Source of the DNA: Chelatococcus asaccharovorans
GTDB taxonomy: Bacteria > Pseudomonadota > Alphaproteobacteria > Rhizobiales > Beijerinckiaceae
Assembly (NCBI RefSeq): GCF_003201475.1
Contig: NZ_QJJK01000002.1
Span: 434,001-498,000, forward strand
Direction: 5' to 3'
Length of the DNA: 64,000 bases
This document shows, piece after piece, positions 17,315 through 59,798 of the stretch. Position 1 is the stretch's first letter. The number at the start of each line of letters is the position of its first letter. A model generated the notes under the pieces. It did no database searches and was not told the origin of the DNA. It saw nothing but the letters and a program-made list of their open reading frames with translations. Position numbers and translations under genes: made by a program.

Positions 17315-18532
17315 ATGGGGAGGACGAGCAAGCGTTCGCAGACGGCCGGCCACGAGGCCATCCGTCAGCTTGCGCCCAATACGGCTCCCGAAGGGCCGGG
17401 GCCTGATCCCGGTGGCGGGCCAGTCTCGACCTTTCCCTTGCCGCCGGCGCTCGAGACCGCCGCGCAAGCCTTCAAGCAGCTCTTCACGGACAATGGCTCG
17501 GAATACCACCTGCTTGGCGGCCAGTTCGCCCTGGTGCGCGCCATGCGCGCCGCCCTCAAGACCAGGATTTACGATATCAACGACACCGCCCTGCGCGAGG
17601 CACTCCTGGCGCTTGTCGAAGGCGATGGCTGGGGTGATCTCTCCGGCGCGCTGCGCTCGGCCGGCGTGCGGATCGGCCAGGCCTACCAGAACGGCCTGCC
17701 TGCCGGGCACCCCGACAAGACAAAGCCGCTCGGCGTGCTGCGATCTGGCTCGACGGTCACAGGCACCACCGCCTATACGTCGGCAACGACCTCCGCACGC
17801 GCGACAATGAATGCCGCGCAGGTCTCCGCTGCCGACAAGGCCGTCGCCACCGCCGTACTCAACGATAGTACCGCCAACGGCGCGTGGGCTTATGGTCGAG
17901 TGAACCAATGGCTCGGCCAACCCAAGCTCGCCGCTGCGACATTCGACAAGGTGTCCTTGCCCCGGCAATGCGCGCTGTTTCTTGACTCGCTCGTTATGTG
18001 CGGTTCCGCGTCGCAGTTCACCGCGAAACAACTCTTGAAAACGCGCAATGTCGCTGCGCAGTCGCTGCCAGCATTCACGCCGGTCACCCTGACCAATCTG
18101 AATGCCAAGGACGACCGATCGACGACAACCAATCTGATGTTGAACTATACGCCCAGCCAGCTGCAGACTGTCGTCGCGGCCGCGAGGACGCTTCTCAGCG
18201 GCGGAGGCTATCTTGTCGCCGGCTGCTTGAGCGGCCGCAAGTACGAAGCCGGAGAACATCCGTTTCCCGAACATTACATTCTTCTCTTTGCTGCCGACGA
18301 CAATACGTTTCTGTTCTGGGACCCGGATGTTTCGGTCACCGATATCGCTGAACTGAGCGGGAAACTTGGACCTGCTATCGGAGTTCTGTTCTACGACAAT
18401 TCCGATGCCGCCCGGCCGAAGCTCTCGACCGGTCTCAATTTCAACGATCTCTCTGATGTCGACATCAGCGGGCACCATACCAAGCACCCAAAACGCCACC
18501 GTTATCAGATCGTGACCCTGCAAAAGCCATAG
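17315..18532 (+). CDS. Hypothetical protein with possible papain-like cysteine peptidase fold (island gene 2)
   Basis: Protein of 405 residues with a clear start (GGAGGG 6 bases before ATG). No family was recognised with confidence. The C-terminal half has the order Cys219 (RQCALFLDSLVMCG), His320 (EHPFPEHYILLFA) and Asp336 (FLFWDPD). Helix with Cys, strand after His, then Asp is the layout of papain-like C39/NlpC-type peptidases and transglutaminases. YLVAGCLSGRK precedes the His strand. No signal peptide. The N-terminal 40 residues are proline/glycine-rich and probably disordered. A processing or modifying role towards the large neighbours is a guess. Confidence 0.75.
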   Translation: MGRTSKRSQTAGHEAIRQLAPNTAPEGPGPDPGGGPVSTFPLPPALETAAQAFKQLFTDNGSEYHLLGGQFALVRAMRAALKTRIYDINDTALREALLALVEGDGWGDLSGALRSAGVRIGQAYQNGLPAGHPDKTKPLGVLRSGSTVTGTTAYTSATTSARATMNAAQVSAADKAVATAVLNDSTANGAWAYGRVNQWLGQPKLAAATFDKVSLPRQCALFLDSLVMCGSASQFTAKQLLKTRNVAAQSLPAFTPVTLTNLNAKDDRSTTTNLMLNYTPSQLQTVVAAARTLLSGGGYLVAGCLSGRKYEAGEHPFPEHYILLFAADDNTFLFWDPDVSVTDIAELSGKLGPAIGVLFYDNSDAARPKLSTGLNFNDLSDVDISGHHTKHPKRHRYQIVTLQKP

Positions 18533-25279: not shown

Positions 25280-28200
25280 ATGGCTGATTTCGACGATCTG
25301 CGTGCCGCCCTCAACACAACACGATCGGCGCTCGATGGTCTCCAGGGTGAGATCGCGGCGCTCAGGGCGCGCCTGAAACGCCTCGAGGACGCGGACGCCG
25401 CGGCTGCCCGCCACTTCAACCCGCGTGACGAAGCCGACGTCGCGGCACGGGAGCGCCGCGCGGCGGACAAGCGCCGTCTCGCATCCGCGCTCGCGGACCT
25501 GCGCGCGCGCGAAAAGGCGGCCCTGACTGACGAAATCCGCATCCGCACCGATTTCGCCGATTTCACGGATCCGCGCAGGGGGATAGCCAACCTCAGCGAC
25601 GCGACGCCGATCCTCATGATGCCAATCCGGCTTGAGACGCGCTTCAAGCCTGCGCGGGAGACCGGCGCGGGTACCGATGAACTCTGGCTACGCATCTATC
25701 CCGATGACTGCTTCATCACCACCTTCGATCCGGCACTGACCGCCGCGGAAGCGGCGGATGCGCGGAGCTGCTGGGCCGGCATCTGGTCAGCCGGCGGCCA
25801 TGAGGATGAGGAACGCGCCGCCTGGCGGGCCATCGCCACCACCCATGGCGCGGGGCGGGCCGGCTGGATCGTCGATCAGTTCCCCGACATTGCGGCCGCG
25901 GCCCGGCCGACGAAGCCAAGGCCGCAGGACATCATCCTGACCGTCGTCACCGAGACGCCCCTGCCCGCCGCCGAGGCGACGGCGCTCGCCCCGTTCTGGC
26001 AGGCTGCCTGGCGTGCCCAGGGCGACGCGACCGCGTTGACGGCGGCACGGGAGGCGCTTGAAGCGGCCCTGGGCGTGGAGCGCGCCGCGGCGATCGCGGC
26101 CGAAACCACGCCCGTCAATTTTGACGTGACGCCGGCGGCGGGCAACGATCCGGCGAGCCTCAATGTCGCCGTCGCCTTCCTCGTTTTTCCTCCCGTCGAG
26201 ACCAAGGAGAGCGCCTGGGCGAGCGCGCCGAAGATGACGCTCCTGCCGGATCGCTTCGTCTTCATCGGCTATCGCGGCAATGCGGCTCCGCGCATCGTCC
26301 TCGGCAACCCCGTACCGGCAACGCTCTTCGTCGGGCCGGATCCGCGGGCGGACGCAACGAGCCAGATCCGGCATGACGACGACGGCGATATCGTGATGCC
26401 GGACGAACTCAAATGGATGACGGACTTCCCGCAGGCCGTCGAGAACGGCATGGGCTTGCGGATCGCGCTCGATCCGGACGAGGCCAGGGGTGGCTTCGAC
26501 CGGGTGCTCGTTGTCGGCCTGCGCCTGAGTGCCGACGCCCCCGAGGGGGCCGCACAATTCGCGGAGCTGCTGCGCGGCCACGCCTGCGGCCGGACCGGGC
26601 TCGCCGTCCTGCCGCAGGGCACGCCGACCAACAACACCGAGACGGTCTCCTCCGGTCACGCCCGCCTCGACGATCCGGATGCCGCCTTCGACGATCGCAA
26701 GTCGGCGCTTTTCACGCCCGATGCCGACTGGCTCGACAAGCGCGACGGCGAATGGCTGGCGGACTATCTCGGCATCGACGCGCAAGTCTTCGCGCATGTG
26801 CATGGCGCCGGCGCGACCGACCAGCTCGCCGCGCGCGCCATGAACACCGCGCTCTGGCCGGCCACCCTGGGCTACTGGATGGAAAGCCTGATGTCGCCGG
26901 TCTTTCGGCGTCGGGTGATCGAACAAACGCGCGGCTTCTTCAATCGCTATGTCATCGCCGGCGGCGCCGTGCCGGCGCTGCGCATCGGTGCCCAGCCTTA
27001 CGGCATCCTGCCCGCAACGGCCTTCTCACGCATGGCATGGCTCGACGCGCGTGAGCGCCCGCTCCTGCGCGGCGAGGACCCGACACTCGCCTTTCTGCGG
27101 GAGCTGCGCCGGATCATCGCCGCCTTCGAGACGGACTGGCGCGCGATGGGCGCCGGCCTCGCCCATGTCGGCAAGGCGGGCGACCCGCACCAGATCCTGC
27201 TCGATATCGTCGGGCTTCACTCCGGCTCGGTGGAATGGTCGCAGCGCTATGCCGAAAGCCTGAAGACGGTCTTCAACCGCCTCAACCTGCTCGGCCTCGG
27301 CGGGCTCATGGAGAAGATCAATATCAGCGTGCGCCAGGCGGCCGCCCGCCAGATCCTGAGCAATCTCGGCTATGCCGGCGAGGAGACGCCGGAGATCTTC
27401 GACAAGCTCTTTTCGGGCCGCCACAACCTCCTCAAGGGCGGCGTCGTGGATGACGTCCCGCTCTCGGAGACGGCCCCCATCCGCGCCTATACCGCCGACG
27501 GCCGCAATTACATCGAATGGTTGAGCGCGGCTTGCGGCACCTCGCTCAATGTGCTCTATGCCCAGGACGGCTTCCTCGACGACACGCCGCCGAAAGCCTT
27601 GCTCTACCTGATGCTGCGCCATGCCTTGCAGCTCGGCTACCACGATGTCGGCATCCGCCTCTATGAGAACGCCGCCCTGATGACGCCGGCCGCAGCCGTC
27701 CTGGCCCGGCAGGACAGTCCCTTTCTTCATATCCAGACAGCGAACACGGTCAGCGAGAGCCGCTACCAGATTCTCCACAACGCCGAGGTCACGATCACGG
27801 GCTCGGCGACCCAGACGGTCTCCGATTTCATCACGGCGCAGTTGCCGACCTTGAACCTCGCCTTGCATCTGCGGGACCAGCGCGCCGCCCTCGAGCGCCT
27901 GAAAACGGAACCCACCGCGCGCCTCGAGCGGGTTTTCGCCGATCATATCGACTGCCTGAGCTACCGGCCGGATGCCTGGCTGCTCGGCCTTGTCACCTAT
28001 CAGCTCACGCGCATGCGCAATATCGCCGATGGCGAGGACCGTGAACCCCGGCGCGGCCTTTATCTCGGCGCTTATGGCTGGCTGGAGGACTTGAGGCCGG
28101 AGAACAAGCATCTGACACCGGTCAGGCTCGATGACCCTGCCCTCGCCGCAGATTTCGGTCATCCGGACGCCCCGCCCTTGATGCGCGACGACACCAACCA

Positions 28201-50246: not shown

Positions 50247-51077
50247 TCAGGCCCGGCGGCCTGTGAAGACATTCAAGCCGACGAGCCGATCAATCGCGAT
50301 GACGATAATGGCCGACCCGATGACGGACCAGGTGGAAACCGCCGCAATGATCGGCCGATATTGATAAAGGAGATATTCATAGATCTTGATCGGCAGCGGC
50401 TGGAGTTCCCGGGGTGTCAGGAAGATTGACACCGAGAAGTCGTTCCACGACGTGATGAAAGCGAATAGAAAACCGGCGATCACGCCCGGTTTGATCAGCG
50501 GCAGCGTAATGGACAGAAAAGTCCGCCAGGGCGTTGCGCCGATGCTGCTTGCCGCATCTTCCAAGGCCGGGTCGAGATTTTCGGTAACAGCCGTAATCGT
50601 TCTCACGGGGTAGGGCATCGTGATAATGATATGCCCGATCATGAGGACAAACAGGTTCGTCAGGCCGAAGATATACATCATGACCTGATAGAGGGCGAGC
50701 GCGAAGATGACCGATGGGACCAGAAGCGGGCCCATGAAGGACAGTGTCAAGACGCGCCCCACCGCCGGCGACATTCTGCGTAACACCAAGGCCACGGGCA
50801 GCGCAAACAGCGTCGATACCGATGCAGAGACGAGCGCAACGACGAGGCTGACCATGGCGCCGTTGACGAAGCTGCCTTCGGTCAGCGCCATCACCATCCA
50901 CTTCAGGCTCAGCGACCGCGGCGGAAAGGTCATGGAATCCGCGTTCAGGGCCGAACCCGCCACGACGATGAGCGGCGCGACGACGAAGATAAAACTGCAG
51001 AACGCGGCGATCTCCAGGCCCGTCGGCAAGCGGAGCCGGAACGTCGATCGATTGAGGTTGTGCGAAGCGGCGGCCAT
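50247..51077 (-). CDS. Polyamine/iron-type ABC importer permease (PotC-like)
   Basis: Inner-membrane permease of 276 residues, GAGGTGAG before the ATG. Six hydrophobic segments; GLEIAAFCSFIFVVAPLIVVAGSALNA opens the domain, and the EAA loop is LEDAASSIGATPWRTFLSITLPLIKPGV. It is the last gene of the leftward operon. Its neighbours make it the partner of the next permease. Confidence 0.9.
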   Translation of the reverse strand: MAAASHNLNRSTFRLRLPTGLEIAAFCSFIFVVAPLIVVAGSALNADSMTFPPRSLSLKWMVMALTEGSFVNGAMVSLVVALVSASVSTLFALPVALVLRRMSPAVGRVLTLSFMGPLLVPSVIFALALYQVMMYIFGLTNLFVLMIGHIIITMPYPVRTITAVTENLDPALEDAASSIGATPWRTFLSITLPLIKPGVIAGFLFAFITSWNDFSVSIFLTPRELQPLPIKIYEYLLYQYRPIIAAVSTWSVIGSAIIVIAIDRLVGLNVFTGRRA

Positions 51078-51081
51078 GGAC

Positions 51082-51987
51082 TCACCTCAAGGTCCGAAAC
51101 GTTCGGCTGACGACAAACAGGTAGATCGCCGTGATCAGTAAGCTCAGAATTGTCAGGCTGATCCCGATGGCCGCGGCGAAGGGGAAATTGCCCTGGATGG
51201 CGGCCTGCTCGTAAGCCATCATGCCCATCATGCGCACCCGCCCGCCGCCCATCAGGGCCGGAATGGCGAAGGCGGCCGCGTTGAGCGTGAACGCGATCAA
51301 CGTTCCCGCGACCACGCCGGGCAGGGAAAGCGGGAAGGTTACAGCCCAGAAGGTTCTGTAGCGATTGGCCCCGACACTGGCCGCCGCTTCCTTCAAGGCT
51401 GGATCAATGGCCGCGATGACGCCAATCAGCGGGAGAACGACATAAGGGACGGCGATCTGTATGAGGCCGATGAGAACGCCAAGCTCCGTGTACATGATGC
51501 GTATACGCGGCATCCCGATCAGTCCGAAGACGCTGTGAACAAGGCCGCCGTTCATCAGGAGCACGTTGAGGCCGAATATGCGAATAACGATGTTCACCGC
51601 CAGCGACACAACAACCATGCTCGTTATCAGGCCGCGCCGCTGCGGCGGAAGTTCGGCGATATAATAAGCCAGCACATATCCGATCAGTAACGCAAATACT
51701 GTCGACAGAACAGAAAGCTTGATTGTGGTCCACAGCGCCGTCTCGAGATAGAACGGATCTGTCCAAAATCGCGCATAGTGCTCCAGCGTGCCGGTGAATT
51801 CCGGCGGGCTGCCGATTTCATGGGTGGAGAGACTGGTGGCGACCAGCCAACCCATCGGAATGAAGAAGAACACGACCACGAAGACGAAAGGCAAGAACAC
51901 CGAGCTGCGGCCGAGCAGTTCACCCGCATTCACCCCAAGGCCACGCCCGCGGATCTCAGTCCTCTGCAATGACTGCGTTGCTGACAT
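51082..51987 (-). CDS. Polyamine/iron-type ABC importer permease (PotB-like)
   Basis: Permease of 301 residues. VFLPFVFVVVFFFIPMGWLVATSL is the first membrane segment and the EAA loop is LKEAAASVGANRYRTFWAVTFPLSLPGV. Its start overlaps the ATPase gene by 32 bases, indicating coupled translation. It forms the pore with the following gene product. Confidence 0.9.
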   Translation of the reverse strand: MSATQSLQRTEIRGRGLGVNAGELLGRSSVFLPFVFVVVFFFIPMGWLVATSLSTHEIGSPPEFTGTLEHYARFWTDPFYLETALWTTIKLSVLSTVFALLIGYVLAYYIAELPPQRRGLITSMVVVSLAVNIVIRIFGLNVLLMNGGLVHSVFGLIGMPRIRIMYTELGVLIGLIQIAVPYVVLPLIGVIAAIDPALKEAAASVGANRYRTFWAVTFPLSLPGVVAGTLIAFTLNAAAFAIPALMGGGRVRMMGMMAYEQAAIQGNFPFAAAIGISLTILSLLITAIYLFVVSRTFRTLR

Positions 51988-53038
51988 TTATCCTGACCTT
52001 GTCTCCGGGCTCCAGCACGTCGGCATTGGAGCGCTCCTGCAGGAACAGGAGCGTGTCGGACCCGTCATCCGGACTGAGGCCGTAACGGACAGCTGCCCCC
52101 TCGTAGATGACCTCGCGAACAACGCCACTGAATTCGTTTGCCGCGACAGGAGATGGTTCACGACGAAGAAGCATCCACTCCGGCCGCACGATGACGCGAA
52201 CCTTGTCACCCGATCGCACCCCGCTCGGCGCATAGGCGTCGACGACCGACCCGCCGGCGAGCCTCACGCGGCCGCGTTCGTTCCCTTCGATCGCCAGCAC
52301 GTCGCCATCGATGAAATTGGCGCTCCCGAGGAAGCCGGCAACGAAACTGTTGGCCGGTCGCTCGTAGACCGTACGGGGATCAGCCACCTGCTGGATGCGG
52401 CCGGATTGCATGACGACCACCCTGTCCGACATCGACAGGGCCTCCTCCTGGTCATGCGTGACGAACAGCATCGTCACCCCGAGGGAACGCTGCAGGCGCT
52501 TGAGCTCGATGCGCATATCCTCGCGGAGACGTCGATCCAGGTTGGACAGAGGTTCGTCAAGAATGATGACCTCGGGGTCGATCGCCAGAGCGCGCGCCAT
52601 CGCGACGCGTTGCTGCTGCCCCCCGCTCAACTCGCGCGGGTAACGATCCTTCAGTCCCGTCAGGCGCACCATCTCAAGCGCCCGATCAACCCGGCGGGCG
52701 ATCTCCTCGCGCGCCAGCTTGCGGATGCGCAGACCGAACGCGAGGATCTCGAAGACCGTCATATGCGGCCAGAGGGCATAGTTCTGGAAAACAACGCCGA
52801 TGTTCCTGCGATAGGGCGGAAGATGCGTCACATTTCTTCCCCGTATCGTGACCTGGCCCTCATCGGGGATAATGAACCCCCCGATGATGCGAAGTGTCGT
52901 CGTCTTGCCGCAACCGCTCGGGCCGAGAACCGTGACAAATTCGCCGCGCTTGATCTGCAGCGAAACGTCGTTGAGAACGTCCACGTTTCGGTATCGCTTG
53001 CCGCAATGCGAAAGTTCTATATCGATACTGTCAGACAT
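51956..53038 (-). CDS. Polyamine/iron-type ABC importer ATP-binding protein (PotA-like)
   Basis: ATPase of 360 residues from the ATG at 53038, whose A is shared with the TAA stop of the binding-protein gene. Walker A is GPSGCGKTTTLRI, the Q-loop VVFQNYALWPHMTV, the signature LSGGQQQRVAMARAL and Walker B VIILDEPLSNLDRR. The C-terminal TOBE domain begins near residue 270 (RLAGGSVVDAYAPSG). A longer frame to 53074 has no ribosome site. Confidence 0.91.
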   Translation of the reverse strand: MSDSIDIELSHCGKRYRNVDVLNDVSLQIKRGEFVTVLGPSGCGKTTTLRIIGGFIIPDEGQVTIRGRNVTHLPPYRRNIGVVFQNYALWPHMTVFEILAFGLRIRKLAREEIARRVDRALEMVRLTGLKDRYPRELSGGQQQRVAMARALAIDPEVIILDEPLSNLDRRLREDMRIELKRLQRSLGVTMLFVTHDQEEALSMSDRVVVMQSGRIQQVADPRTVYERPANSFVAGFLGSANFIDGDVLAIEGNERGRVRLAGGSVVDAYAPSGVRSGDKVRVIVRPEWMLLRREPSPVAANEFSGVVREVIYEGAAVRYGLSPDDGSDTLLFLQERSNADVLEPGDKVRINVSNAVIAED

Positions 53039-54060
53039 TACCGCTGAACTTCCCGGTCCCAGCGGGACTGCCACTGATCATAAACCGTCACAATGTATTT
53101 CCAGTCGGCGCTCTGGAGATCGTCAATGTTCTTCGGGTTGAGCATAAGCTTTGCCTGCAGTTCGGGAGGCAACACCGTATTGCGGTTCGTCGGGAAGTAG
53201 CCGAGCTTCTCGGCCATACGGACCCCGGATTCCGGGCTGAGCAGATGATTGACGAGCTTCTGGGACAACTCGCCATTCGGCCGGCCAGCAACAACACTGA
53301 GGGTCGAGGACAGGGGAAAGAACCCTTCCTTCGGAATGGCACCCTGGATCTTGACCCCCTCGACATCGCGCGCCCAGGCAATGCGGCCGTCGGTCCACAT
53401 GCTCATCGCAATCTGATCGTTGCGATAAAGCTCAAGATGATCGGCATGGGCATTGATCCACACATCGATATTGCGGGCGATCTTTGCGAGTTCGGCGAAG
53501 CCGGCGTCCGGATTGCGCTCACTGCCGCCCGCGAGCTTCGCGAACAACGTGATTAGCTCGATATTTTCCGGGCGAAAGCCGCGCAGCGCTATACGGCCCT
53601 TATACTCCGGCTTGGCGAGATCGTACCATGATTCCGGCGGCTTCACCTCCGCTGGATTATAGGCAATTACATAAGCACCGAAATTGGCGGCGATGACAGC
53701 GTCCGAGTAGATCGCCTTGGGATGAAGCGCCTTTAGATTTGGAATAAGCTTCGCATCCAACGGCGCGAAGGACCCCTCCGCCTCCATGCGCAGCGCGAAG
53801 ACCGGATCGGAAACGATAACATCGATCTCCTTGTTGCGGACGCGCGCGATATTATTGGCGCCCGATCCCGGAATGATCGTGACCTTGACGTTGTTCTCCT
53901 TCTCGAAGGACTTCACGCTTTCGGCCATCGCCTCATCATAGGCGCCGCCGAAGCCGCTCAAGATCAGCTCGCGTTGCTGCGCCGCAGCGACAGAGCCGAA
54001 AGTCGCAACCGCTGTGACGATCAGGCCGGCAAGCACGGCCCGACTCTTTATCCACTTCAT
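53038..54060 (-). CDS. Polyamine/iron-type ABC importer solute-binding protein (PotD/AfuA-like)
   Basis: Periplasmic receptor of 340 residues. The ATG at 54060 has GGGG 8 bases upstream and starts MKWIKSRAVLAGLIVTAVATFG, a Sec signal cleaved near AAA-QQR. An ATG at 54096 would add a charged leader. LILSGFGGAYDEAMAESVKSFEKENNVKV is the usual N-terminal block of the SBP_bac_6/8 group for polyamines, iron or phosphonates. It heads the leftward operon. A GTATATAC site at 54462-54469 suggests co-control with the divergent paralogue pair beyond. Confidence 0.9.
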   Translation of the reverse strand: MKWIKSRAVLAGLIVTAVATFGSVAAAQQRELILSGFGGAYDEAMAESVKSFEKENNVKVTIIPGSGANNIARVRNKEIDVIVSDPVFALRMEAEGSFAPLDAKLIPNLKALHPKAIYSDAVIAANFGAYVIAYNPAEVKPPESWYDLAKPEYKGRIALRGFRPENIELITLFAKLAGGSERNPDAGFAELAKIARNIDVWINAHADHLELYRNDQIAMSMWTDGRIAWARDVEGVKIQGAIPKEGFFPLSSTLSVVAGRPNGELSQKLVNHLLSPESGVRMAEKLGYFPTNRNTVLPPELQAKLMLNPKNIDDLQSADWKYIVTVYDQWQSRWDREVQR

Positions 54061-54597
54061 GACTCGTTCCCCTTTTTTGGCTTTTTTGTCCGCCATGTCG
54101 ACTACAACGGGCGGTGGAATACGATCGTGTCCGATCTGAGCGGAAGATGCTCTAACGCTGCTATTGTCGCGTCACACTCAAACCATGACACTGCGACGAC
54201 TATTCAGTACAATGACGTTTTTACTGACGACCAACATGATACGCTCCGCCTCGCGCCAGATCACATGCCGCCGAGCTATCGACACACAGATGCCAGTTCT
54301 TCGAAGACGAGACACAAGGCACAGGGCCCGTGGGAGCTGGAGGATGGCTGTCGGTATCGGCGCCGGCCTCGCGAGCAACCGCCCCGCCGGCTCGGACATA
54401 TTCAGCTCCAACCGAAATGCTGAAACAAGCACCTCCTGTGTCGAAGGCATATCGCCATTTAGTATATACATTTACACAGGCTGAAGAGGGGCGCAAGCAT
54501 CATTTCGGAATGCCCGGCTTATCTGGGCTCTCTGACGCAACCGTTCCGGCCGGCCTCGTGCTCACCCTGGGCATCCGCCAGCCTACAGCTTCGCGGA
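54061..54597. other. Gene-free leader region of the PotD-type operon
   Basis: About 540 bases between two minus-strand genes. Short open frames here have no ribosome sites and no recognisable products. The only clear sites are the palindrome at 54462-54469 and the TATACT box that overlaps it on the minus strand. That implies a long leader of some 400 bases or a further promoter closer to the gene. Confidence 0.6.
54458..54474 (-). promoter_or_regulatory. HutC-like operator upstream of the PotD-type operon
   Basis: TTTAGTATATACATTTA contains the perfect 8-bp palindrome GTATATAC (54462-54469). The same core followed by NTTTA occurs at 55851 before the plus-strand paralogue. On the minus strand, TATACT here could be a -10 box. 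Confidence 0.5.
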
Positions 54598-55557
54598 TCA
54601 GACGAGCGAAACGGTGAGCCAGATCTGTTCCTTGGTCTCGAAGGTGCTCTGCCAGACGCGACGACCAACCTCATCAAGGCGATCAGCGTGCTCGGGGATG
54701 ACCTCGCCGAGGACGGGCTGGGCAAGATCCTCAGTCGTCGGCCCATATTGCACAATGAACTTCTGGCCCGTTGACTGCGAGAACCGGATGCGGCCCTTCG
54801 GCGCATCGCAGATGCGCTCACGCACCTGGATCGGCGCCGTGCTGATCAAGGGCGTCCACGCATACATGGATTCCCCGGTCACCACCGCGTGGTCCTGGAG
54901 GATCCTGAAGGGCAAGGCCGCGATGACATCCCGGCAGAGCTCCGGGTTCTCGTTGACCGCGAGAAACGCATCGACGCTGATACCAAGCGGATCCCACGTC
55001 AGCCTGATCCTCCGGCCATCCCGGATAGGCACGCGACGCGAAAGATCCATGAGCGAGGGCACCTGCTCCTCGGGCTTATCGTAGACGAATTGCTTGCCGA
55101 GCCCCCATGGAAAATAGTGAAAGGACCACGCGGCGAGCTGATTTGTATAGGCGCAAAAAGCTCTCACCGCATCGATCGCCTCCTCGCGGCTTTCCGCCGA
55201 CGGAAGGTGTTCGCGCAGGGCAAATGCAAGAAGCCCCATGTCCGGAAACCCGCTATAGCGGAGATAGTTGCTATAGGAATGATCAAACGAGTTCAGAATA
55301 AAGCAAAACTGTTCAAGCGAGATATCTCTGTTTTCGATAATGTGAACCAGCGGATAGTAGGTATACATCGAATAATCGCGGATCATCCCGGCAGCGATAT
55401 CCCATGTACCGAAATATTGCCCGTAGCTACCTGCCTTGTTCTCCAGATTACCACTGCGAAACGCGCGGATCTCCTGCGGCTCGTTGTGAAGGATGGCGGC
55501 TGTCCGCTCCTTCGTCGCCTTGACAACATCGCGCAAACTTTGAAATGACATGTCCAT
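54598..55557 (-). CDS. Two-domain protein: helical domain then cyclophilin-like (DUF3830-like) domain
   Basis: Protein of 319 residues. Residues about 1-160 are a helical, aromatic-rich domain with SYGQYFGTWDIAAGMIRDYS and AAWSFHYFPWGLGKQF. Residues about 180-319 form a beta domain with GRRIRLTWDP, GESMYAWTPLISTAPI, RERICDAPKGRIRFSQSTG and LAQPVLGEVIPEH, which I place in the DUF3830 cyclophilin-like family from memory. Every motif has a counterpart in the gene at 55914, but with the two domains in reverse order. A second ATG at 55551 is better spaced from GGGG than the first. No signal peptide, so cytoplasmic. Ligand and role unknown. Its regulator and transporter neighbours suggest handling of an imported compound. 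Confidence 0.85.
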   Translation of the reverse strand: MDMSFQSLRDVVKATKERTAAILHNEPQEIRAFRSGNLENKAGSYGQYFGTWDIAAGMIRDYSMYTYYPLVHIIENRDISLEQFCFILNSFDHSYSNYLRYSGFPDMGLLAFALREHLPSAESREEAIDAVRAFCAYTNQLAAWSFHYFPWGLGKQFVYDKPEEQVPSLMDLSRRVPIRDGRRIRLTWDPLGISVDAFLAVNENPELCRDVIAALPFRILQDHAVVTGESMYAWTPLISTAPIQVRERICDAPKGRIRFSQSTGQKFIVQYGPTTEDLAQPVLGEVIPEHADRLDEVGRRVWQSTFETKEQIWLTVSLV

Positions 55558-55599
55558 TCACCCCGTAACCTTGATGGCATGGCGGCCTCGCCGCCTGCA

Positions 55600-55636
55600 T
55601 TGGATATACCATTAGATCATATTTGTACATACAATA
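55600..55636 (-). promoter_or_regulatory. Two HutC-like operators before the minus-strand paralogue
   Basis: TTGTACATACAA (55623-55634) is the reverse complement of TTGTATGTACAA, the core recalled for HutC operators. TTGGATATACCATTA (55600-55614) is a weaker copy. Both lie 45-80 bases upstream of the minus-strand gene start. Confidence 0.55.
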
Positions 55637-55759
55637 ACGCACGGCGGATCAGCTCTGGCAATGCGCTTTTTTTGGGCTTCCGACAGCTATCCATCGGCGG
55701 GGCGGGTGAGCCTTCGTGATGGGAGAGCGGCTGCTGAAGGGCTCAGGAGCCCAGTAAAG

Positions 55760-55783
55760 TAGACATAAGCAGCATTATGTCTA
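55760..55783. promoter_or_regulatory. 9-bp inverted repeat in the divergent region
   Basis: TAGACATAA / TTATGTCTA with a 6-base spacer, perfect pairing. It could be a second operator or part of the promoter of the plus-strand gene. No other copy was noticed in the window. Confidence 0.5.
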
Positions 55784-55846
55784 TAATAAATTTCGACCAA
55801 CGACGAACCTTGGCGTGAAAACCGCTTGCGCCCGTGGTGGGTTTCA

Positions 55847-55863
55847 TTTTGTATATACCTTTA
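55847..55863 (+). promoter_or_regulatory. HutC-like operator before the plus-strand paralogue
   Basis: TTTTGTATATACCTTTA holds TTGTATATAC (55849-55858), centred about 60 bases before the start codon at 55914. The palindromic core GTATATAC is the same as at 54462. TATATA inside it may double as a -10 box. Confidence 0.55.
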
Positions 55864-55913
55864 AGGGCTTTTGTCGACTTTCGCGCCCTTCCCACCATGA
55901 AAGGACTGCAACG

Positions 55914-56873
55914 ATGGGCAGATTAATCGATATCAGATGGCCTGAGCTCGACATCATGGTCGTCGCCGAATTGGCGGACGAGCAGAACCCCGAGATGTGC
56001 GAGGAGTTCTGGCAGGATCTGCCGTTCAAGGTCATGCAGGCCCACCCGGTTGTGTCGGGCGAGTCCTTGTACGCGTGGACGCCGACGATCAGCACGGCGC
56101 CCGTGCGGCACCGCGAACGCATCGTGGATTGCCCGGTGGGACGGCTGCGGTATTCACAGGCAACGGGAAACAAATTCTCGATCCAGTACGGCAAGGGCCT
56201 GGAGCCGCTCGCGCAGCCTGTTCTCGGCATGGTCCTGCCGGAGTATCATCATCTGTTACCCGTCGTCGGCAAGGCCATCTGGAACAATCTCTTCTTTGCG
56301 AAAGAGCAGATTTTCGTGGAAGTTAGCCCCCACGATCCCGCCGAAGCCTTCAAGGGTGAAGGGCGCTTCGCCAATCTCAAGGGCGCGGCCGCGGAATTCT
56401 ATGCAGAAGCCAAGCGTATCCAGACGGTCGAGCCCGAAGACTTGCGCCGCATCCGGTCTGGTGAGATCGGCGACACAGGCACGTATGGACAGTACTTTAC
56501 AGCGTGGGATTTCGCCAATGGCATGCTGCGCGACTATATCATGTACACGGCATATCCCTTGCTGAAGCTGGTTGATACACTATCGCACAAGGATCTTATC
56601 GCGGCGGTTGATGCTTTCGATCCGGCCTATTCCGAATACCTCGGCTATTCCGGGCTCGAAACTCTCCTCGATTTCTCGGTCAAATTGCGCGCTGCTATCC
56701 GCGAAACCGAGGACAAGGAAGAACTGCGCACCCTGATGCGGACGTTCATCATGTATGGCAATCGCCTTTGCGCCTGGTCCTATCACTATTTTCCATGGTA
56801 CCTGGGCATGTTCTATGGCCGCAAGATCAACGGCCAGGAATTTCCGGGTCGCTTCAACCCCGTGAAGTCCTGA
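55914..56873 (+). CDS. Two-domain protein: cyclophilin-like (DUF3830-like) domain then helical domain
   Basis: Protein of 319 residues, the same length as its divergent paralogue, from the ATG at 55914 with AAAGGA 8 bases upstream. Residues about 1-138 are the beta domain (GRLIDIRWPEL, GESLYAWTPTISTAPV, RERIVDCPVGRLRYSQATG, LAQPVLGMVLPEY). Residues about 150-305 are the helical domain (TYGQYFTAWDFANGMLRDYI, CAWSYHYFPWYLGMFYG). The order is the opposite of the gene at 54598. A 33-codon upstream extension overlaps the operator and lacks a ribosome site. No signal peptide. Function unknown. Strict conservation of Trp, Tyr and Arg in both copies suggests a shared ligand pocket. Confidence 0.86.
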   Translation: MGRLIDIRWPELDIMVVAELADEQNPEMCEEFWQDLPFKVMQAHPVVSGESLYAWTPTISTAPVRHRERIVDCPVGRLRYSQATGNKFSIQYGKGLEPLAQPVLGMVLPEYHHLLPVVGKAIWNNLFFAKEQIFVEVSPHDPAEAFKGEGRFANLKGAAAEFYAEAKRIQTVEPEDLRRIRSGEIGDTGTYGQYFTAWDFANGMLRDYIMYTAYPLLKLVDTLSHKDLIAAVDAFDPAYSEYLGYSGLETLLDFSVKLRAAIRETEDKEELRTLMRTFIMYGNRLCAWSYHYFPWYLGMFYGRKINGQEFPGRFNPVKS

Positions 56874-56909: not shown

Positions 56910-57174
56910 ACGCAACCGTCAGGCGCCGTCGCCGCCGATCATGGAACGGCGCGGGGCAGCAGGACCTGGTTTTCAGCTGGTGCTTTGGTCTCCTGGCTGT
57001 CGCGATCACTCTTGGCTGTGGCGATCAACAGAGACGTAAAGCTTTACTCGATTTAAGTTCCTGAAGCCGCGGATCGGGAATATTGATACAGATTGGATCA
57101 GTTTTGCGGCCCCGGATCCGGGTGTTATAGATGACAGTTGAGTTGCGGTGATTTTGCCCCAAGAGGTCTGGTTG

Positions 57175-57966
57175 GTGGACGAACAGGACGCTTCAGCGGT
57201 TGCCCCCTCCGCAAAACGCGACGCGCGCGCGGACAAGCAGGCCATGCCGTTATATGCAGAGATCCAGCGCGACATCGAACGCAAGATCATGACCGGCGAA
57301 TGGGGAACGGGCACACGGATCCCCCCGGAAACGGAGCTTGTCGAGGTTTATAATTGTTCGCGGATGACCGTTAACAAGGCGCTGTCCAGCCTGGCCGCAG
57401 CCGGTATGATCACGCGAAAGCGGCGCTCGGGATCGTATGTCGCACCTCCCCGGATCGAGGAGCCCCTCACCTATATCCAGGATATCCGCGCCGAAATTCT
57501 GGCCACGGACCGGTCCTACCGTTTCGAGATCGCCAACCGCAGCATCCGCAAGGTCACCGAGGCCATCGACGCGCGGCATGTCGGCGTACCCGTCGGCACG
57601 CGACTTTTATATCTGGAAGTCATGCATTTCGCAGACAATCTGCCCTTCACGATGGAGACCCGGCAGATCAATCTGGATGCGGTCCCTCAGGTCGAGCGCC
57701 TCCAGTTCAAAAGCGAGCCCCCCGGGAGTTGGCTATTGAGCAACGTGCCGTTCAGCGAGGGCGAACATTCGATCCGGGCCATTTCTGCCGATGCCATGAT
57801 CGCCAAGAAACTGCAGATCGTCGAGCGCACCGCCTGCATCTCCATCGCGCGCCGCACCTGGCTCAATGGCGAGCTCATCACCTTTGTAAGATTGATTTAC
57901 CCGGGCGACCGTCACCGCTTCATCGTGCGTTTCAGCCCGTCATCTTCCGCCTTCGGTTCGCTCTAA
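57175..57966 (+). CDS. GntR-family transcriptional regulator, HutC/UTRA subfamily
   Basis: Regulator of 263 residues from the GTG at 57175 (AAGAGG 8 bases upstream); a GTG at 57148 is the alternative. The winged HTH is PLYAEIQRDIERKIMTG, then RIPPETELVEVYNCSRMTVNKALSSLAAAGMI and KRRSGSYVAPP. The C-terminal UTRA ligand domain includes LLYLEVMHFADNLPFTMETRQINLD and FVRLIYPGDRHRFIVRFS. UTRA regulators often sense the substrate of the linked pathway. HutC-type sites lie before the PotD-type operon and both permuted paralogues, so all three are likely targets. Confidence 0.88.
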   Translation: MDEQDASAVAPSAKRDARADKQAMPLYAEIQRDIERKIMTGEWGTGTRIPPETELVEVYNCSRMTVNKALSSLAAAGMITRKRRSGSYVAPPRIEEPLTYIQDIRAEILATDRSYRFEIANRSIRKVTEAIDARHVGVPVGTRLLYLEVMHFADNLPFTMETRQINLDAVPQVERLQFKSEPPGSWLLSNVPFSEGEHSIRAISADAMIAKKLQIVERTACISIARRTWLNGELITFVRLIYPGDRHRFIVRFSPSSSAFGSL

Positions 57967-58241: not shown

Positions 58242-59798
58242 TCAGCCCTGGCGCTGGCGAGGAGCACCCCCGCTTCGTGCGGGGAAGGTGATCGGAGATT
58301 CAACCGGCATCGCACCCACGTCATGCTCGGGCCAGAAGCGCCCTTGCGTCCAGGTGAACTGCCCGCGGGTGAAATAGCCGATCCCGGGCGTCCGCAGCAT
58401 CAAGGGCCTCGCGAGACCTGCAAAGTTCAAGGTGAAATGATAGCCGGACTTGACGACGATGCAGTCCTGATCCGCGATCATGATGCCGTTGCTCTCGAAG
58501 GCGGCCGGATCATGCGTAAAGCCCGGCTTGCTCGTGACGAGAACCCTGATGCGCCCATCGATCTCCAGTACAGCAACGGGCCCGAGAGCCGTCGGTTCAC
58601 CACCGCGATACGGGCCGCGCATCTCGAACAGGCCGTCACCGAGACTGACGATGCGGGCTTCGACGTCGAGGGGCGCAAAGCCCGGCGTCATCCCGCCGCC
58701 GAGCTGAAACCGCGCAACCTGCCCGGCCCCGAGCGTCTGCGCCCTGGCGACGCTGGCGGCATCGGTGATCGGCACAGCGGCGCGCAACCCGTCCCCACGC
58801 GCCAGCAAGGCAGCCAGGATCGCGGTGGAATCCCCCGGCGCGCCGGCGAGCACCCGGTCGCCCATGTCGGCGAGGACATAAGGTTCGGTTCCCCGGTTCG
58901 CCGCGACGCGCGCGAGCGCCTCGTCGATCGTCAGCAGGTCATCGACGAATTCCTCGCGCTTGCGCCAGAATGCCTCGCCCAATTGCGCGGCTGCATTCCG
59001 CGCGCCGTCCTCTGCCCCTTCGGCGCTCGTGACGACGACGGCCTGGCCCATACCCGCGTCGTCCAGGAAGCGAAATACGTTGTAGAGCGAAATGTCCCAG
59101 ATCCCGGCCGTCCGCGATGTGAGGTCCCGGGCCATGTCGTGGAGTTCCCGCAGAGGGCCTATCGCGGTCTCGTTGCCGCCCGGCAACAGCATGGGAACCT
59201 TAACCAGGGTGCGCACCGGCCGGAGTGAGCCGTCGAGCACGGCGAGAACGCCTTGGGCGACCTTCTCGCCGCAGGCGACCACGTCGGAATGCGGGTTCTC
59301 CTTACACGCAATGCAGATGTCGGTGGCCAGGAGCATGGCTTCCGTCACATGCGCATGAAGATCGAGCCCCACGCCGATCACGACCTCCCGGCCCGCCGCC
59401 GCGCGCACGTCGCGCAGCAGATCGCCCTCGGCATCCGGCAGCACGGTGGTGCCCATCGCACCATGCAGTTCGAGCACGATCGCGTCGGGCGCATAGGCCG
59501 CGACGGCCGCGCATATCTCCCCCTTGAGAGTGAGATAGAAATCGTGGTCGACGAGCCCGCTCGGCGGTGCCGAGGCCGAAAGCGCCGGGATGAGCTCCAC
59601 GCCAGCCTCATCAAGGACGGAGATGATGCCGCCGAGCGTCGTGCCTGATCCTCTCGCCTCGCTCAGCACGCCCTCCCCTCTGGAGAGGACGAAGCAGTCC
59701 GCCGGCGTCGGGATCGGGCTGAAACCGTGCGATTCATGGAAGATCCGCGCCACCATGACGCGCGGCGGATTACGAACGGCCCTGTTCATCTCGGACAT
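58242..59798 (-). CDS. M81-family metallopeptidase (MlrC/microcystinase C-like)
   Basis: Cytoplasmic protein of 518 residues, in the usual range for the family. The N-terminal domain has RVMVARIFHESHGFSP, LELHGAMGT at 110-117, D146/H148 in GLDLHAHVTE and His170 in KENPHSDV, which match the proposed zinc ligands of MlrC. The C-terminal domain begins near residue 320 with VLADMGDRVLAGAPGDSTAIL. It is the last gene after a PotA-B-C set. Relatives next to transporters may hydrolyse small peptide-like or amide compounds rather than microcystin. The first ATG may not be the start; later ATGs at residues 4 and 15 are possible. Confidence 0.88.
   Translation of the reverse strand: MSEMNRAVRNPPRVMVARIFHESHGFSPIPTPADCFVLSRGEGVLSEARGSGTTLGGIISVLDEAGVELIPALSASAPPSGLVDHDFYLTLKGEICAAVAAYAPDAIVLELHGAMGTTVLPDAEGDLLRDVRAAAGREVVIGVGLDLHAHVTEAMLLATDICIACKENPHSDVVACGEKVAQGVLAVLDGSLRPVRTLVKVPMLLPGGNETAIGPLRELHDMARDLTSRTAGIWDISLYNVFRFLDDAGMGQAVVVTSAEGAEDGARNAAAQLGEAFWRKREEFVDDLLTIDEALARVAANRGTEPYVLADMGDRVLAGAPGDSTAILAALLARGDGLRAAVPITDAASVARAQTLGAGQVARFQLGGGMTPGFAPLDVEARIVSLGDGLFEMRGPYRGGEPTALGPVAVLEIDGRIRVLVTSKPGFTHDPAAFESNGIMIADQDCIVVKSGYHFTLNFAGLARPLMLRTPGIGYFTRGQFTWTQGRFWPEHDVGAMPVESPITFPARSGGAPRQRQG

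Follow-up and report, generated by a model that had tools for sequence, protein, structure and literature searches.

Adjacent genes of the Pictet-Spenglerase family with opposite domain orders in Chelatococcus asaccharovorans, probably for breakdown of a cucumopine-type opine

Gene pair and locus

The stretch analysed here (64,000 nucleotides of contig NZ_QJJK01000002.1 from Chelatococcus asaccharovorans; referred to as the window) contains two adjacent, divergently oriented genes, for which a sequence-only reading had proposed the same two domains in swapped order. Both frames, each of 319 codons, were present, and domain-wise BLASTP confirmed the swap: a beta domain (54% identity over 137 amino acids; 154 bits, E 6e-49) and a helical domain (39% over 150 amino acids; 115 bits, E 1e-34) were common to the two proteins, in the order helical then beta on the minus strand (referred to as HB) and beta then helical on the plus strand (referred to as BH). 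An upstream GTG at 55815 leaves the BH frame open too, giving 352 amino acids. The equal length of HB and BH, previously read as a sign of permutation, looks like a coincidence, because translated relatives of the pair had 315, 318, 320, 323, and 328 amino acids. As argued below, the pair probably belongs to a locus for opine breakdown.

Genes for a Pot-like ATP-binding cassette (ABC) importer were found on the left of HB and on its strand, and a gene for a HutC-type repressor on the right of BH (Table 1). The consensus of the HutC operator, given as TGTA-N2-TACA in PMC12977541, was matched only once in the 64 kb (0.04 matches expected), and this match sits between HB and BH. The G+C content from 50 to 58 kb was 53-63%, mostly below 60%, and that of the surroundings 61-70%, so that this stretch looks as if it had been acquired.

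Table 1. Positions of the gene pair, its domains, and the associated features in the window
Feature	Position	Strand	Remarks
HB gene (helical then beta; protein P0001)	54598..55557	minus	319 aa, ATG start
HB helical domain	55084-55533	minus	residues 9-158
HB beta domain	54601-55023	minus	residues 179-319
HB conserved Glu276	54730-54732	minus	
BH gene (beta then helical; protein P0002)	55914..56873	plus	319 aa from ATG
BH beta domain	55914-56333	plus	residues 1-140
BH helical domain	56379-56819	plus	residues 156-302
BH conserved Glu97	56202-56204	plus	
Gap between the two start codons, putative divergent promoter region	55558..55913		356 bp
TGTACATACA, match to the HutC operator consensus TGTA-N2-TACA	55624..55633		
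HutC-type GntR repressor	57148..57966	plus	TIGR02018, 263.8 bits (cut-off 220)
ABC transporter substrate-binding protein	53038..54096	minus	77-79% identical to the plasmid-island counterpart
ABC transporter ATPase, PotA-like	51956..53074	minus	
ABC transporter permease, PotB-like	51082..51987	minus	
ABC transporter permease, PotC-like	50247..51077	minus	

Beyond these genes, an M81/MlrC-type metallopeptidase is encoded at 58242-59798 (minus strand), and a relative with 41% identity lies just to the right of the window (L064 4777-6219; L and G numbers denote loci and genomes).

Family assignment and active site

By sequence, HB and BH are assigned to the Pictet-Spenglerase family of cucumopine synthase, McbB, and KslB. 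PF18631 (Cucumopine_C helical bundle) was detected in HB (residues 9-147, 70.9 bits) and BH (residues 160-291, 61.2 bits), well above the Pfam cut-off of 27. The beta part had been likened earlier to DUF3830 (PF12903), and BH-type proteins are annotated as "DUF3830 family protein" in plasmid records. This held for BH to the extent of a match below the cut-off (19.4 versus 26 bits), while in the Pfam search at E up to 1 the family was not listed for HB; DUF3830 was therefore rejected as the whole identity of the pair. Searched against NCBIfam with E up to 1, neither HB nor BH had a listed family.

McbB Glu97, which we take to be the catalytic residue, aligned with Glu97 of BH and, via the HB/BH alignment, with Glu276 of HB. 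Glu was found in this column in all of the fused HB (25/25) and fused BH proteins (16/16, the mikimopine type described below included), in 25 of the 28 split units of B-H order, and in all five of H-B order (74 domain units overall). Lys87 of BH, aligned with a His in McbB, was conserved in 25/25 fused HB proteins and in 15/16 of the fused BH type, the one without it probably being the mikimopine-type protein.

In sequence, HB was collinear from end to end with KslB (9ns6, E 1e-93), and BH with McbB (3x27, E 5e-33). Each protein has a cyclophilin-like beta domain joined to the bundle in one of the two orders known in this family. The best PDB match of HB was 9uwa (E 7e-97), for which none of the titles listed names KslB. 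The models of the single chains were of moderate to poor quality, with a mean pLDDT of 64.4 and 56.3: the predicted HB superposed on KslB with Z 18.7 and a root-mean-square deviation of 12.4 over 261 residues, domain placement not being reproduced, and its beta part matched cyclophilin-like folds; in the BH model, poor in the beta half, the helical part gave the sole match.

The PDB titles describe KslB (9ns6, 9nst, 9k0a) as a bacterial Pictet-Spenglerase, with structures containing L-Trp or the product formed from L-Trp and 2-oxoglutarate; PMC12513458 likewise names L-Trp and 2-oxoglutarate as its substrates. HB resembles KslB in domain order and over the full length, and KslB likewise couples an amino acid with 2-oxoglutarate; on the other hand, KslB converts L-Trp to a beta-carboline, whereas the HB gene of the window is adjoined by the importer and HutC. 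McbB shares the domain order and the aligned Glu97 with BH, but is distant in sequence and uses Trp and oxaloacetaldehyde; it also decarboxylates and oxidises (PMC7024544).

The same locus on opine plasmids and in other genomes

The head-to-head pair, the importer, and HutC occurred in the same order in the window and in the histidine-utilisation (hut) islands of cucumopine-type plasmids. The order importer, HB, BH, hutH, and HutC was found in pRi2659, pAvCG412 of Agrobacterium vitis, the Ti (tumour-inducing) plasmid of NCPPB 3554, Microvirga puerhi, and a genome of the same genus as the window organism (G003); pRi2659 is referred to as cucumopine-type and pRi1724 as mikimopine-type in PMC8554961. 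Identities between the window and these loci were 87-89% for BH, 73-82% for the importer, 80-81% for HutC, and 55-57% for HB. The islands also carry hutG, hutI, a gene for formimidoylglutamate deiminase, a hydantoinase/oxoprolinase pair, and, where annotated, hutU; lactamase/hydantoinase genes have been tied to rideopine, another lactam-forming opine, in PMC8554961. HB lies directly upstream of hutH in two further loci (L113 and L114) and one gene away in L110; in L112, a split B-H pair is likewise one gene away. Exact HutC sites were found in intergenic gaps in five of ten other loci (L032, L034, L036, L037, and L039) and inside a gene in one (L044), and were absent from four (L030, L033, L045, and L065).

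The sequence-only reading would have been refuted by related genomes keeping only one of the genes; the pair was present in all three of the other genomes of the genus searched. PF18631 itself was sparsely distributed: 5/60 genomes in a sample of relatives (the source genome and three congeners among them), 4/385 in a class sample (the source genome included; two over the cut-off), 1/398 in a phylum sample (the source genome), and 5/199 in a sample of the family to which A. vitis belongs (A. vitis among the five; four over the cut-off). The source genome has seven copies, namely the window pair, two other fused HB, and three split pairs. Of its two hutH matches, the one on contig 7 exceeded the cut-off, whereas the one on contig 18, which narrowly missed it, lies close to further members of the Pictet-Spenglerase family; a hydantoinase/oxoprolinase pair is on contig 12. 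RolB gave no match in this genome, the control being equally silent.

Several loci carry more than one enzyme type. On contig 18 of the source genome, near the second hutH, a split B-H pair faces a fused HB gene between ABC transporter genes (L060 8358-12265), and two enzyme types per locus were a recurring arrangement. In genome G117 (L116 1-19000), a mikimopine-type module (split pair, RpiR, and hydantoinase pair) adjoins a cucumopine-type one (HutC, BH, and HB). Two-piece matches, in which the genes may be broken, were obtained for BH in the Agrobacterium plasmid record NZ_MZ773647 (69224-70178) and for HB in another such record, NZ_MZ913312 (27047-27992).

T-DNA genes as copies of the bacterial enzyme

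The gene located by the right-hand border match in the transferred DNA (T-DNA) of pRi2659 (L059 32234-33196; border matches at 18475, exact, and 33434, one mismatch) has the HB order. It was 100% identical over 829 bp to the bacterial HB of the same plasmid, the ends and flanks being different. In pAvCG412, an HB copy on the T-DNA side, 189 bp from a border match, shared 97.8% identity with the bacterial HB across 864 bp, and the corresponding value in the plasmid of A. vitis CG957 was 99.1% over 864 bp; since the T-DNA copies of CG957 and pAvCG412 are identical, these two represent one case. Between pRi2659 and pAvCG412, identities were 85% for the T-DNA copies and 83%, 78%, and 77% for bacterial HB, BH, and hutH, respectively. 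The near-identity within plasmids, as against 85% between them, indicates that the gene body was copied between synthase and degrader separately in the two plasmid lines.

These T-DNA genes are annotated as "hypothetical protein" in the records; from their T-DNA place, the opine type, and the family, we infer that they encode cucumopine synthase, and assign the name cus. They share the HB order with the window, and each is near-identical to the bacterial HB of its own plasmid; they differ in that cus would be made in plant cells as a synthase, and the HB of the window shares 57% identity with its bacterial counterpart on pRi2659. A precedent for synthesis genes related to breakdown genes is provided by the mannopine genes mas (T-DNA) and moc (bacterial), which involve other chemistry and no domain permutation.

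At the same place in the T-DNA of pRi1724, with border matches on both sides, there is a fused BH gene, named mis (mikimopine synthase) here likewise. A nearby island of this plasmid, which also holds hut genes, encodes the beta and helical domains in separate genes, with 54% and 40% identity, respectively, to the two halves of the fused BH. The mis and split genes are similar to the window genes in the same two domains and the link to hut genes, but belong to another clade, mis being a separate BH fusion. Cucumopine and mikimopine are described in PMC9103826 as histidine-derived C-4 diastereomers. When mis was compared with the split pair of pRi1724, a 137-bp patch with 76% DNA identity was noted in the beta domain (L057 25138-26064 versus 27055-28022); lying above the general level of identity, it may be a copying tract.

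Four architectures and the origin of the domain orders

Every helical match clear of a locus end had a beta match fused to it or adjacent. We found 124 domain units, of which 75 were distinct: 25 fused HB, 16 fused BH, and, as separate genes, 29 split units of B-H and five of H-B order; these counts cover the loci other than L102 (both domains in overlapping frames), L105 (no match), and 5 of the 12 copies in genome G807. Trees were built from 74 units, after removal of a B-H unit whose beta piece was short, and several long branches were flagged in these trees. The Oscillospiraceae genome G807 has 12 PF18631 copies, and those fetched were separate beta and helical genes, partly in alternating arrays (L043, L076, L086, L091, L096, and L099-L101).

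In the joined-data tree, the 25 fused HB and the 15 fused BH other than the mikimopine type formed one group of 40 (support of 99/96), whose nearest relatives were split two-gene operons (support of 97 in the first tree). The T-DNA mikimopine-type fusion fell outside this group, and a single clade of all fused BH was rejected in the approximately unbiased (AU) test (p 3e-9). Fused HB formed one clade with the joined data (97/94) and the beta domain (98/96); in the helical-domain tree they did not, two changes being required, but the constrained single clade was not rejected (AU p 0.295). The beta-only tree required two changes for the fused group (AU p 0.31). These trees support a relationship of HB and BH through a change of domain order. 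The two routes proposed earlier, permutation and independent fusions, are both compatible with the data, either as one fusion with a later permutation or as two fusions starting from a split operon that had been duplicated; the single-domain trees do not decide between them. The HB of the window grouped with those of Enterobacterales and a metagenome-assembled genome (MAG) of Rhodobacteraceae (support of 96, first tree), which might reflect its replacement by a gene of another clade, but its constraint to a group with genus-mates and Ri/Ti genes was not rejected (AU p 0.107).

A symbiont with HB in both contexts

The symbiosis plasmid of Paraburkholderia phenoliruptrix carries an HB gene behind hisZ-hisG (L109 17985-20987), close to hisC and a major facilitator superfamily (MFS) transporter gene and approximately 15 kb from nifW. 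A second HB was found near hutH (L110 14227-17817) among amino-acid ABC transporter genes; it is separated from hutH by one gene, and hutU and further hut genes follow. Across 968 bp the two HB genes shared 98.2% identity, whereas their flanks were unrelated. The arrangement could reflect a nutrient that is both made and eaten, possibly a histidine-based rhizopine in this Mimosa symbiont.

Discussion

We consider it probable that the locus takes up an opine of the cucumopine type, in which L-histidine is joined to 2-oxoglutarate (the non-histidine half of cucumopine and mikimopine), or a close natural analogue, and breaks it down by retro-Pictet-Spengler cleavage. The basis is the homology of the two proteins and their conserved Glu, the synteny with plasmids of the cucumopine type, and the T-DNA copy that is nearly identical, together with the HutC gene and the operator match; the reaction direction (from context), the substrate, the roles of HB and BH, and the regulation form the conditional part of this explanation. 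The Pot-like importer would bring the opine in, and HB and BH would catalyse ring opening in a reverse Pictet-Spengler reaction, the beta-domain Glu serving as the acid/base, so that a 2-oxo acid and L-histidine are released. HutH, whose gene lies elsewhere in the source genome, would remove histidine irreversibly and pull the reaction, and HutC would repress the divergent promoter until urocanate appears. HB and BH would be paralogues, probably differing in stereochemistry or in the keto acid accepted, and the T-DNA cucumopine synthase would be derived from the HB enzyme as a borrowed copy that works in the forward direction in plant cells.

Several observations weigh against breakdown of this compound. 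The characterised relatives KslB and McbB run forwards; the hutH, other hut, and hydantoinase/oxoprolinase genes of the plasmid islands had no match in the window; exact HutC sites were missing in four of the 11 loci scanned, and the sole site of pRi2659 is inside a permease gene; the context of HB behind hisZ-hisG in Paraburkholderia suits synthesis; and the low identity of the window HB compared with BH (55-57% versus 87-89%) means that its substrate may differ. The first and fourth of these points, together with the forward reaction of the T-DNA synthases as named here, would suit a locus that makes the adduct, HB and/or BH joining histidine and a keto acid and the importer retaking the product, for example a metal chelator or an exported nutrient. 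This is clearly unlikely: a HutC gene lies beside the pair with an operator match between HB and BH, many relatives have hut genes next to HB, BH, or split pairs, and no exporter was recognised among the seven neighbouring genes examined beside the pair. A division of labour with HB for synthesis and BH for breakdown was also considered and dropped, as the second Paraburkholderia copy is an HB as well, 98% identical to the first.

It appears very unlikely that HB and BH form one heteromeric enzyme, each supplying half of a pocket, as suggested by the sequence-only reading. The head-to-head pair is indeed conserved over several genera, fused HB accompanying fused BH in 12 of 16 whole genomes and in 13/13 Agrobacterium/Rhizobium opine plasmid records with BH (several of which are the same or near-identical plasmids). 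However, KslB is an HB alone, HB also occurs without BH in Paraburkholderia, Rhodococcus, and Streptomyces, and four of the 16 genomes have BH without a fused HB (two MAGs, an isolate draft, and a genome in which BH lies at the end of a contig), so an obligatory heteromer is not supported; furthermore, the catalytic Glu is present in both proteins, and in Enterobacterales the two genes are 5-15 kb apart. A further alternative, rather unlikely but with an appreciable chance, is that HB opens the ring and BH performs another step on the same compound (lactam, decarboxylation, or epimerisation). The far higher conservation of BH than HB between loci, the decarboxylation and oxidation by McbB, the solved protein of BH order (PMC7024544), and the hut-linked HB without BH in Paraburkholderia would agree with this, but BH lies directly upstream of hutH in pRi2659, L065, and L118, which fits a histidine-releasing enzyme, and the hydantoinase/oxoprolinase pair could serve the lactam.

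The earlier statement that such a pair is not known to have been described was correct in part. The structures of McbB and KslB show the two domain orders; on the other hand, among the matches listed from mostly non-subscription literature, the parts consulted of PMC8554961, PMC6733357, PMC10745273, PMC11351324, PMC10410297, and PMC12568777 contained no statement linking these genes to opine breakdown. Hooykaas 2022, as cited in PMC10745273, defines a cucumopine-catabolic region of pAtAg67; going by that citation, this region is probably the same kind of island as the window-type locus and may include the HB/BH pair.

Beyond the window, we tentatively propose, at somewhat less than even chance, a patchily distributed class of opine-eating reverse Pictet-Spenglerases in soil, plant-, and insect-associated bacteria, either split or fused in both orders. 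Agrobacterium T-DNAs would have captured these degrading enzymes at least twice (cucumopine from HB and mikimopine from the split type), with the HB synthase and degrader kept near-identical by repeated copying, and the HB twins of the Mimosa symbiont, behind histidine-making and among histidine-degrading genes, would be a similar case based on a histidine rhizopine.

If breakdown by the reverse reaction is correct, it would explain how a tumour or hairy root makes exactly the food that its bacterium eats: the bacterium's own degrading enzyme would have been placed in the T-DNA and run forwards. It would also provide an enzymatic reverse Pictet-Spengler reaction and a natural series (split, HB, and BH) of one enzyme, and would extend cucumopine-type chemistry far from Agrobacterium, with a possible histidine rhizopine in a nitrogen-fixing symbiont.

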